Shown piece by piece: positions 33,278 through 36,674 of a stretch of 64,000 nucleotides of DNA. The translations under genes and the position numbers were made by a program. Source of the DNA: Clostridium sp. AM33-3 (GTDB lineage: Bacteria; Bacillota; Clostridia; Lachnospirales; Lachnospiraceae); assembly GCF_003480315.1 (NCBI RefSeq), contig NZ_QUIV01000012.1, forward strand, positions 26,395 through 90,394, given 5' to 3'. The notes under the pieces were generated by a model. It did no database searches, was not told the DNA's origin, and was given only the letters and a program-made list of their open reading frames with translations. The stretch's first letter is position 1. Each line of letters opens with the position of its first letter.

Positions 33278-34306
33278 TTACTGGACAAAACGGTTGTGTG
33301 CCTGGTGCACGGTCTCTTTGCTGATAGCAGCATAGCACTTTTTGGTGGTATCAAGCTGCACATGACCTAACTTTTCGGCTACAAGCTCCAATGGAGCACC
33401 ACGGTTGATCATATCGGTGCCGACCGATCGGCGGAATGTGTGCGGGGTGAGCTTGATGTTTGCAATGTTCTCATCACGAGCCTGGATGCGTTTTAATATA
33501 TGACGTGCTCCGGCATTGCTTAAACGGTTGTATGGCTTGTTGGCTGAGACAAACAAAGCCTCATTGTTATCGGCGCGTGATGCTAGATAGCGTTCAAGGT
33601 GTAGTTTGGCCGGAGCCGTAAAGTAAACCTCACGTTCCTTGCGTCCTTTACCGTACACGATAGCTTTCATGTTTACCATGTCTACATCACTGCGATTCAT
33701 GGCTAACAGTTCACTGATACGAGCACCAGTGCTGTAAAGCATTTCACAGAGCGCAAGTTCGCGTTCGTTTTTGCAGGCGCATTTGACCTCTTCGCGCTGG
33801 TAGGAATTGATTGTAGGGCCAATCGTTCGCTCTACCTTTGCCTCTTTCAGTTTCTTCCCGGGATTGTCCGAAAGAAGATCCTCTGCATACAGATATGAGA
33901 AAAAGGAACGGATCTGGATCAGTTTTCCGTTATAGGTACCATCGCGCCATTTCCTGTTCAGGCGGCCGTGTACCAGATAGGCCATAATGTCGGCATATTT
34001 GATATCTTTCACATTTTTATTGACAAAATCAAGAAACGTGCGCAGCTCATAGCGGTATGATCGGATACTCAATTCGGTGCATCCGCGCAAGTGCATGTCT
34101 AAAAGGAATTGCTGCAGATAGGAATCTGTCATGTCCAGATCCGTAGACAGGGCTGTTTCATCCTCTTGGGTGATCTGGTAAGGACAGAGGTGCATTTCCA
34201 GGATCATCTTAGCTGTATTCAGGTTTTCGTCCGAGACGACACCGGATGCCTGCAGTGCAATCAGAATGTCATTGATCAATGTTGTGGTTGTAATAGTTCG
34301 TACCAT
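33278..34306 (-). CDS. Tyrosine recombinase / phage integrase, 342 aa
   Basis: All catalytic residues of the family are visible: R196 (TGARISEL), K220 (YGKGRKE), H289 and R292 (LTPHTFRRSVG), H315 (LGHVQL) and Y325 (TTKKCYAAI). A SAM-like core-binding domain occupies residues 60-145. AAAGGAGGGCGCT precedes the ATG at 34306. Its place at the prophage edge suggests it integrates the phage; it could also flip the fibre cassette. Confidence 0.93.
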   Translation of the reverse strand: MVRTITTTTLINDILIALQASGVVSDENLNTAKMILEMHLCPYQITQEDETALSTDLDMTDSYLQQFLLDMHLRGCTELSIRSYRYELRTFLDFVNKNVKDIKYADIMAYLVHGRLNRKWRDGTYNGKLIQIRSFFSYLYAEDLLSDNPGKKLKEAKVERTIGPTINSYQREEVKCACKNERELALCEMLYSTGARISELLAMNRSDVDMVNMKAIVYGKGRKEREVYFTAPAKLHLERYLASRADNNEALFVSANKPYNRLSNAGARHILKRIQARDENIANIKLTPHTFRRSVGTDMINRGAPLELVAEKLGHVQLDTTKKCYAAISKETVHQAHNRFVQ

Positions 34307-34423
34307 AGCGCCCTCCTTTAATATTGTAATATGGTAACTTATCACCTCAACCAACTGTGAAACAGTCTGCCTTCTGTCAAGAAAAAACCAATAAATCAAA
34401 GGATTTCGCTATTTTGGGAATAA

Positions 34424-34893
34424 GAAACCACAGAAGGATGTGTGATTCATTACGGTTTTATAGAGAAATTCATTGAGAAACTTGGAACGAAGTACCATAT
34501 AAAAGAAATTGCGTTTGACCGTTGGGGAGCAATGCTGATGATACAGGATTTGGAATGTATGGGATTTACCGTTGTTCCTTTCGGGAAGGGGTATAAGGAT
34601 ATGAGTCCGCCAACGAAGGAACTTATGAAGCTGACACTTGAGGAGCGAATTGCCCACGGTGGACATGAGGTTCTCCGGTGGATGATGGACAATGTGTATG
34701 TCAGACAAGACCCTGCCAGAAATATCAAAATGGATAAGGAAAAATCTAATCTACGGAGAAAATCGATGCAGCAGCAACCGTTATGGCACTTGACCGTGCA
34801 ATTCGTAATCAGGGCAGCGAGGAACGTGTATATGATGGCAGGGAATTCTTGTTTTTAAGAAAGAAAACCTCTCCGGCAGATGGAGAGGTTTGA
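34424..34893 (+). pseudogene. 3' remnant of an HK97-like terminase large subunit
   Basis: VIHYGFIEKFIEKLG, IKEIAFDRWGAMLMIQDL, GFTVVPFGKGYKDMSPPTKE and GGHEVLRWMMDN are the nuclease part of a siphovirus-type TerL unlike the terL at 9263. At 34745-34752 the motif TCTAATCT suggests a 5-bp duplication; after it the frame shifts and continues as STEKIDAAATVMALDRAIRN to a stop at 34893. No ATPase domain is left. Confidence 0.85.
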
Positions 34894-34909
34894 ATGATCA
34901 TGGTTTTGT

Positions 34910-35431
34910 TTATGTATCGGAATAAGAACTGCATTTTTCTTCCAGCATTTTGAAATTACAGCATCTTGCAGCAAGGGAAGAATCCGGCTTGGCAATGCGC
35001 TTCTGGTATAATTTCAGGGCTTTGTTTTGTAGAGTGTCCTGAACATTGTCAATCAGGGCTTTTTCTTTCTGGAGAAGGTAAACATAGTCGTTTTTTTCCT
35101 TTTCGTTGCTGAAAGAACGGAAACTTTCTACCTGATTATATTTTAACTGAGTAAGGCAGTTATCAGGAACCGGAATCATATTATTGATATTCAATACAGC
35201 ATAAAGATATCCGGTGGATTCCTCATGGAGTTTGTGGAAATCCAGACTGTTGGACATTTTCTGATGTTTCGGTTTTGCAGAGGAAATAGGGACATAGTAG
35301 TGGAAATCTCCGATAGTAAGAAGAATTACCACATGGAGTTTCAAACGTTCCCCATACTCCACATATCCGACACGGGAATCAAACTGTGTCAGGTAATTTA
35401 TGTATTTTTTATCGACAACGTACCAATCCAT
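34910..35431 (-). CDS. toxN: Type III toxin ToxN/AbiQ-like endoribonuclease, 173 aa
   Basis: The N-terminus MDWYVVDKKYINYLTQFD, the RLKLHVVILLTI strand, YYVPISSAKPKH with the catalytic-region Ser/Lys, and NNMIPVP match the ToxN/AbiQ family. These toxins cut mRNA and their own antitoxin RNA and cause abortive infection when phage disturb the balance. TCAGGAGACTCT precedes the ATG at 35431. An antitoxin repeat array and a terminator lie directly upstream, as in known type III loci. Size matches the family. Confidence 0.9.
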   Translation of the reverse strand: MDWYVVDKKYINYLTQFDSRVGYVEYGERLKLHVVILLTIGDFHYYVPISSAKPKHQKMSNSLDFHKLHEESTGYLYAVLNINNMIPVPDNCLTQLKYNQVESFRSFSNEKEKNDYVYLLQKEKALIDNVQDTLQNKALKLYQKRIAKPDSSLAARCCNFKMLEEKCSSYSDT

Positions 35432-35442
35432 AGAGTCTCCTG

Positions 35443-35474
35443 AAAAGCAAAAAAGCGGGTGGATTACTCCACCC
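35443..35474 (-). terminator. Attenuating terminator between antitoxin RNA and toxin
   Basis: On the minus strand GGGTGGA, loop GTAA and TCCACCC are followed by GCTTTTTTGC. In known type III systems such a terminator lets most transcripts end after the antitoxin repeats and only a few reach the toxin. Confidence 0.85.
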
Positions 35475-35570
35475 ACTGCTTTTAACCGATTGTTTTAATT
35501 GGACAATCTAACCGCTTTTAACCGAGCGTTTTAACTGGACGCTCTAACCGCTGCACAGATATCTATCTGT
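35475..35570 (-). ncRNA. Type III antitoxin RNA with two 36-nt repeats
   Basis: Two tandem 36-nt units at 35480-35515 and 35516-35551 differ at five positions. Four of the five changes compensate: GATTG/CAATC in one unit becomes GAGCG/CGCTC in the other, keeping a 5-bp stem. The flanking GGTTA and TAACC-like sequences suit a pseudoknot like ToxI. Length, tandem layout, the terminator after it and the toxin downstream all fit. Two repeats is a low number for the family. Confidence 0.85.
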
Positions 35571-35576
35571 GTTTTT

Positions 35577-35606
35577 ATTATATGCAATTTTACAGCAAAA
35601 AATCAA
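35577..35606 (-). promoter_or_regulatory. Promoter of the type III toxin-antitoxin locus
   Basis: Read on the minus strand: TTGATT at 35606-35601, 18 nt, then a perfect TATAAT at 35582-35577. Transcription would start about seven bases before the inverted CACAGATA/TATCTGTG and the antitoxin repeats. Confidence 0.7.
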
Positions 35607-35615
35607 TGCCTTTGA

Positions 35616-35849
35616 TTGCTAAAATTTTATGAACTTTTTTCGATAGTTACTGATGAAAACTCCAATATGAAAAAGATGGGAGATATTATCTTAAGGCAGG
35701 AGGACGTGCTTCATATTCCCGGACTTGGATTTGATGGTCTTATCGGTTACTCACCTATTGCGATGGCAAGAAATGCTGTCGGTATGACAATGGCCTGTGA
35801 AGAATAAGGAGCCAGCTTTTTTGCCAATGGCGCAAATCTCGGTGGTGTT
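35616..35849 (+). pseudogene. Portal protein fragment of the second, decayed prophage
   Basis: DVLHIPGLGFDGLIGYSPIA and ARNAVGMTMACEE are the core of HK97-type portals. The next codon is TAA where a tyrosine is expected, after which GASFFANGAN continues in the same frame. Both ends are missing: the N-terminal third is lost at the toxin side and the rest is replaced by permease sequence at about 35850. Confidence 0.8.
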
Positions 35850-36674
35850 GTGATAAACATACATTATATCCGCAATTTACTGCATTTTGATCTCGGTACA
35901 TCCATCCGCACCAGCCGACCGGTTTTGGATGATCTGGCCCGGTGTTATCCGGCAACTCTGGAGCTCGCCCTGTTCTCCATTGTGATCGCGTCCCTGTTCG
36001 GCATCCTGTTTGGCATCATTTCTGCCATTCGCCGAAACAGCGTTATCGACCAGGCTGTCCGTGCTGTCTCCGTCACGGGTGTCAGCATTCCGGCGTTCTG
36101 GTTTGCCCTGCTGATGCTGTATTTCTTTTATTACAAATTAAAGATCTTTCCGGGACCGGGACGATTAAGCAACAGTTTTTCCGCGCCGCAGACCGTGACC
36201 GGTATGTATGTGCTGGACAGTCTGCTGGAGGGGAATCCTGTCAAAGCCATGGATGCACTGCGGCATCTGATCCTGCCGGGCATTGTGCTGGCAGCCTTTA
36301 CGATGGGGCTGATCACAAGAACAACGCGTTCCAATCTGCTGGATGCACTTTCTACGGATTATAGCCGCACCGCAAAGGCGAAGGAACTTGGCAGTCTGGG
36401 ACTGATCATCGGTCATGCCCTGGGCAATGCGCTGATCCCGGTTATGACCGTGATTGGTCTGGGACTTGGAAATCTGCTGGGCGGCATGGTGCTTGTCGAG
36501 ACCATTTTCAAGTGGCCGGGAGTAGGTCAGTTCGCATACGAGTCTGTGATGACGGCGGACTATCCGGCAATCATCGGCGAGGCGCTTCTGATCGCGCCGA
36601 ATTATATGATCATTAATACAGTGGTTGATATTCTGTACGGAATCATCGATCCAAGAGTGAGGTGCAGCGAATGA
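35850..36674 (+). pseudogene. Oligopeptide/dipeptide ABC permease lacking its N-terminus
   Basis: From YIRNLLHFDLGTSIRTSRPV onward this is a DppB/OppB permease, with membrane segments and the coupling motif RTAKAKELGS...ALIPV. Typical members have about 70 more residues at the start, including the first membrane helix and a TPGDP-like loop; here they are replaced by phage portal sequence. The GTG at 35850 has no clear ribosome site. It is probably non-functional. The stop overlaps the second permease. Confidence 0.75.

Follow-up and report, generated by a model that had tools for sequence, protein, structure and literature searches.

The closest described relatives of the locus analysed here are AbiQ/antiQ of Lactococcus lactis, ToxIN of Pectobacterium atrosepticum pECA1039 and of Bacillus thuringiensis, and CptIN of Eubacterium rectale. 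The order of repeats, terminator and toxin gene is among the published criteria for type III systems (PMC5086642), and the antitoxin ToxI is an H-type pseudoknot (PMC5086642, PMC8860590). In the accessible text of the type III review arrays are treated via consensus repeats (PMC5086642). The portions of PMC5086642, PMC8860590, PMC4627078 and PMC5772629 that were available do not describe stems that are unlike, that covary or that alternate within one array, although the original type III survey may mention such stems.

The locus lies on the minus strand (35606-34910) of a window of 64,000 nucleotides, i.e. the whole stretch of Clostridium sp. AM33-3 DNA that was analysed, and has the type III order: promoter, leader, two repeats, terminator and toxin. 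Rereading of the sequence bore out the preliminary description, which had placed a promoter, two 36-nt repeats, a terminator and a ToxN/AbiQ-type toxin on this strand. The putative sigma-70-like promoter (35577..35606, minus strand) consists of TTGATT at 35606-35601, an 18-nt spacer and TATAAT at 35582-35577, with 10 of 12 matches; it is called on its position and on the finding that relatives have this -10 box at a similar distance, since the number of promoter-like sites in the region (three, against a shuffle mean of 4.1) shows no enrichment and is uninformative. Sequence, repeat pattern and covariation define repeat 1 (35516..35551, minus strand), with the S2 stem GAGCG/CGCTC, and repeat 2 (35480..35515, minus strand), with GATTG/CAATC, each of 36 nt. 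These tandem repeats, which relatives also have, lie 5' of an intrinsic terminator at the antitoxin/toxin boundary (35454..35477, minus strand), a hairpin followed by TTTTTGC that stands immediately 5' of the toxin gene. A terminator scan also placed a terminator-like hairpin 3' of the toxin (34865..34891, minus strand), and the region holds six terminator-like sites against a shuffle mean of 1.3. Two repeats and the type III order are likewise found in CptIN, whose repeat measures 45 nt instead of the 36 nt of the window (PMC4627078), while antiQ repeats resemble those of the window in being about 35 nt long and few in number (PMC5086642).

The toxin ORF (34910..35431, minus strand; 173 aa) begins with an ATG at 35431 preceded by AGGAG and stops at 34910. 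A 188-aa ORF with GTG 35476 as the toxin start was rejected, as that start falls within the terminator. The product is predicted to be a ToxN/AbiQ-family endoribonuclease on the evidence of Pfam, PADLOC, PDB comparison by sequence and the predicted fold. It covers the entire Pfam profile PF13958 ToxN_toxin (E=1.8e-54) and matches PADLOC AbiQ (E=1.3e-32), and none of the NCBIfam models matched it. A PDB sequence search found four solved relatives, which we take to be AbiQ and the ToxN proteins of B. thuringiensis, P. atrosepticum and E. coli. The predicted model (mean pLDDT 88.6, with residues 28-32 below 50) resembles the same four structures at TM 0.74-0.77, sharing its fold with AbiQ (4glk, TM 0.77) and with the toxins of pECA1039 and B. 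thuringiensis (2xd0, 4ato), although identity to AbiQ in the structural alignment is just 26%. The toxin is not of the CptN type: the structural match to CptN is weak (4rmo, TM 0.51, E=1.1e-3), and CptN was not matched at E<=0.001 in the PDB sequence search. The active site of E. coli ToxN comprises Lys33, Thr52, Ser53 and Lys55 (PMC8860590), and the counterparts in the window toxin, read by eye from an alignment with P. atrosepticum ToxN, are K31, S50, S51 and K53. K31, S51 and K53 are invariant in 30 aligned sequences and S50 is at least 90% conserved; by alignment, the toxin appears to have the active-site residues of an RNA-cutting ToxN. Close relatives are plentiful, since of 440 candidates from a search of 5.8 billion proteins 405 are relatives, and identity is at least 70% for the 120 matches listed. 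Named relatives in its clade are mostly Lachnospiraceae or other Clostridia. Two records (L038 and G1835:C25:19501-20879) carry paired ToxN-family genes near each other, and in L038 there is one parsed array per gene.

Five positions distinguish repeats 1 and 2: each stem arm has two of them and the loop has the fifth. The preliminary description had read four of these as two base pairs swapped on both sides (GAGCG/CGCTC versus GATTG/CAATC), and this is correct: the changes are compensated. A 29-base pattern from both units (up to three mismatches) has two matches in the window and none in 100 shuffles, which, given that the pattern was derived from the two units themselves, shows only that the repetition is non-chance. 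Covariation was assessed on the 36-nt family, whose 31 arrays hold 71 units, 38 of them distinct; 37 were aligned, a 32-nt unit (L031 unit 1) being excluded, and they come from 22 loci and the window, with window repeat 2 represented by an identical stretch of L001. Across these 37 distinct repeats S1 (GG/CC) and the five S2 pairs are paired in 259 of 259 cells, and four of the five S2 pairs are changed on both sides (33 such cells, covariation score 0.482). No shuffle of 500 reached that cell count or score and 32 of 500 reached four two-sided pairs, with the caveats that related rows can exceed shuffles and that the rows were chosen by a parser demanding pairing. Sliding the S2 partner by 1-3 columns brought pairing down to 18-55%, and RNAalifold recovered the S2 helix unprompted, together with one extra pair. 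Loss of the GATTG/CAATC pairing in homologues, which the preliminary description had named as evidence against its reading, was not seen, the S2 pairs forming in 37 of 37 parser-selected repeats. The S2 stem is real and corresponds to S2 of the ToxI pseudoknot. The Rfam search that had been proposed as a check found no family in the window that reached gathering score (0 matches); at E<=10 over 34800-35800 it gave five matches, all below gathering score and none to an antitoxin family.

Each repeat would fold into S1 (GG/CC) and S2, with S1 a proposed helix whose invariance in the 37 rows is by construction, as the parser required it. The repeat order in the window family, GG - UUA - S2 - U - CC - A-rich loop - S2, is by reading the same S1-L1-S2-S1-L2-S2 order as in pECA1039 ToxI (AGGU - S2 - U - ACCU - loop - S2), where S1 is longer, with four base pairs (AGGT/ACCT) to the two of the window family. 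Three arrays read by eye outside the parsed set have a weaker or broken S1 in repeat 1 and an intact repeat 2: in L016 and L036 one S1 pair is lost and in L004 it is a G-U. An alternative S1 further downstream, between the loop CC and a GG after S2, was dropped because its second base varies. Taken together, it is highly probable that the locus is a type III toxin-antitoxin system of the ToxIN family with a real S2 stem in its repeats. It gives the family one more clear member.

Upstream of the repeats lies a leader hairpin, CACAGATA-GA-TATCTGTG (35554..35571, minus strand), which starts at about the expected transcription start and is assigned by covariation in 22 distinct leaders. In these, 96.6% of 176 cells are paired and four pairs have two-sided changes, a number that 2 of 500 shuffles attained; the covariation score was attained by none of the 500, while the number of further pair types was reached by 370 of 500 and so is not above chance. 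Inspection by eye showed the hairpin in 27 of 31 arrays; the four without it, L031, L032, L033 and L054, were therefore excluded from the leader alignment. Its role may be to set or shield the 5' end of the RNA, because no TTAAAA linker stands 5' of repeat 1.

The toxin-antitoxin genes are flanked by phage gene remnants. Downstream of the toxin is a fragment of a terminase large subunit with its nuclease domain (34442..34858, plus strand; Pfam PF20441, E=3.3e-14), and upstream of the promoter is a portal gene remnant (35670..35807, plus strand; Pfam PF04860, E=1.2e-8, 35.0 bits, under the curated cut-off of 39.1). In the four of four relatives scanned (L092, L015, L010 and L095) the toxin locus likewise stands between portal and terL genes of the opposite strand, both being shortened in L010; among the flanks of 11 loci inspected by eye, L012 has the same portal/terL setting and several differ, for example L011, L016 and L026. 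One toxIN locus of an earlier survey lay on a prophage (PMC5086642). The locus probably arrived with a phage, and the window copy seems to sit in prophage remains that border on a second, contractile-tail prophage at its integrase end. That prophage (8449-34399) encodes terminases, portal, major head, tail sheath, tape measure, baseplate, fibre, holin and endolysin, with its integrase at 33278-34399 (minus strand). On the other side (35670-36674, plus strand) the portal fragment abuts a transport permease gene that seems to lack its usual 5' part, perhaps an old integration scar. In viral contigs the repeat pattern occurred in nine stretches, on the same nine contigs that carry the toxin. No orphan array of the exact repeat pattern was found in the viral contigs searched, the pattern of another repeat family had 0 matches in them, and no viral relatives were found for alignments A3 and A4.

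In pECA1039 there are six near-identical units, of which the last departs. An L. lactis plasmid array related to antiQ (L303) likewise consists of near-identical repeats, three in number and with TCTC/GAGA as S2, whereas the two repeats of the window are unlike. Among relatives, the stretches upstream of toxin N-termini in 345 sequences (344 loci and the window) comprised 268 unique regions, and 181 of these fit the pseudoknot grammar with at least two units; L004, L016 and L049 are among the 87 unparsed regions, and L036 is not among the 268. Some of these parses are wrong, given that the same parser accepted 80 of the regions as reverse complements, 42 reversed and 3 shuffled. Neighbouring stems differ in 162 of 313 pairs of the 181 arrays and cannot cross-pair in 139 of 313, and in two-unit arrays they differ in 42 of 74 and cannot cross-pair in 38. 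That 139 of the 162 differing pairs are compensated is no independent proof of covariation, since the parser demands pairing. Cross-pairing between neighbours is impossible for 37 of the 40 pairs of the 36-nt family and for 17 of the 18 pairs of the 37-nt family. Unlike repeats are common, and the window locus is not special in this.

Two toxin clusters near the window are A-B-A by pairing in 17 of 17 three-unit arrays, with GATTG-GGCCG-GATTG and variants in the first (9/9) and CCAT-CTAT-CCAT and variants in the second (8/8), and farther relatives with A-B-A are L241, L285, L291, L308, L312, L317, L341 and L344. Two of these, L312 and L344, are large Clostridioides phage records in which three-unit A-B-A arrays accompany ToxN-family toxins. 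The window's own clade has two units in 15 of 15 tree rows, with GATTG last and GAGCG, GAGTG or GGGTG as the first stem; as far as the stems can tell, this B-A order looks like A-B-A minus its first unit, as in L044. Compatible neighbours are frequent as well and prevail in 46 of 69 toxin clusters. The units are alike in L050, which has two, and in L052, L056 and L060, which have three, and the neighbours in L029, L032, L033 and L050 are compatible. L049, read by eye and dropped by the final parser, has three different stems. On plasmids L309, L311 and L314, arrays of four to six units switch stem type by one base, in some cases merely to G-U.

A neutral history could account for such patterns, old copies having diverged by compensated changes, stems being inherited by position, unlikeness bringing no benefit and the two-unit B-A arrays arising from A-B-A by loss of the first unit. 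It is given a little under an even chance. Within clades stems are indeed inherited by position, and by strict identity the 95 three-unit arrays comprise 34 AAA, 25 ABA, 18 ABC, 11 AAB and 7 ABB. The A-B-A excess, which was tested in ways devised after the pattern was seen, is also fragile. With toxin clusters at 60% identity and the cross-pairing criterion, 12 count as A-B-A and 8 have their two like stems in another order (p=0.013, tested against one third), but over 18 settings 4 fell below 0.05 (0.010-0.043) and 14 lay at 0.077-0.453; two settings at 80% gave p=0.038 and 0.0015. Adjacent against non-adjacent mismatch in 49 clusters gave p=0.12. A purely neutral history sits less easily with the odd stem, which varies by lineage in related clades (GGCCG, GATCG, GACCG, GGCTG; CTAT, TCAT, CTGT) while the stems beside it are GATTG or GGTTG (first clade) and CCAT (second clade).

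The letters of neighbouring stems were also compared with shuffled units, a control that ignores the inheritance of stems by position. In the 36-nt family 39 of 40 neighbour pairs are unlike in their letters, where shuffling gives 29.9 (0 of 5000 as high); after collapsing at 92% toxin identity the figures are 22 of 23 against 18.0 (P=0.0032), and at 85% they are 10 of 11 against 9.6 (P=0.58), where the excess is gone. In the 37-nt family 17 of 18 compares with 8.9, and at 85%, with four arrays, 6 of 7 with 3.4 (P=0.0052). Loop L2 does not follow the stems, its neighbour differences exceeding shuffles in none of six settings (lowest P=0.15), and this too counts against neutral divergence. The unlike-neighbour pattern thus goes weakly beyond chance.

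The same loop result bears on the idea that unlike stems protect the array by breaking identity between neighbours, which would slow repeat loss by slippage or recombination: loop L2 could do this as well, yet neighbouring loops are no more different than shuffled. Repeat number does differ among relatives, L029 and L044 look by reading like arrays that have lost a unit, and deletion or addition of AbiQ repeats lowered phage resistance (PMC5086642), but protection of the array is considered unlikely.

The mechanism preferred for testing is that unlike neighbours block an out-of-register fold, a suggestion offered tentatively. In the proposed scheme, one transcript would start at the leader hairpin and run through both repeats, mostly stopping at the terminator, and the antitoxin RNA would exceed the toxin mRNA because most transcripts end there. 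By analogy with the family, the toxin would cut the precursor in the TTAAAA linkers and the released repeats would lock it; loss of the short-lived RNA, for example in phage infection, would set the toxin free. With unlike neighbours a competing register would be lost, as the 3' arm of repeat 1 could no longer pair with the 5' arm of repeat 2. This pairing spans the 15-nt linker, against a cognate loop of 9 nt with a six-pair stem. In a pseudoknot-free partition function the native window array forms its cognate stems at 0.97 and 0.97 and the shifted pairing at 0.00; with both stems of kind 1 cognate pairing falls to 0.66-0.67 and shifted pairing rises to 0.33, and with both of kind 2 the values are 0.50-0.55 and 0.24. 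Thirty-two arrays were examined, and over the 28 unlike ones (the window and 27 loci of the genome collection) homogenising the stems raises mean shifted pairing from 0.000 to 0.117 and lowers mean cognate pairing from 0.22 to 0.12. The native cognate value lies above every homogenised version in only 12 of 28, and the folding model says little for many arrays because their native stems hardly form without S1. Across 69 toxin clusters, the shifted-minus-cognate energy is 0.35 kcal/mol in unlike and 0.85 kcal/mol in like clusters (p=0.0105, uncorrected, the one of three tests below 0.05), while neither the shifted energy itself (p=0.47) nor the outer S1 pair (p=0.75) differs between them. Mean stem length (4.04 and 4.20) and linker-minus-loop length (7.9 and 7.3) are close between the two kinds of cluster.

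The preliminary description had offered another reading, in which each repeat owes its identity to the stem and a mixed ring forms from both kinds of repeat and the toxin. Nothing was found in its support. Both kinds would enter rings if the stem were irrelevant to binding, as one transcript yields both, and ToxIN rings hold three RNAs (PMC8860590) where the window array makes two kinds. Near-identical repeats nevertheless work in known systems such as pECA1039 and are present in many relatives, and a single CptI repeat of E. rectale is enough for full antitoxin activity (PMC4627078). This reading is very improbable.

Neutral history is somewhat likelier than register keeping, and register keeping is the most interesting account. 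Stated generally, many type III arrays might carry a folding code in which neighbouring S2 stems are kept unpairable, as B-A, A-B-A or A-B-C, to hold a single register of folding and cutting, although the code itself is doubtful. If neighbours are kept unlike on purpose, they would show how tandem copies of one pseudoknot avoid mutual pairing. The question of register would then also touch engineered RNA arrays, and a small system of two repeats makes it testable.
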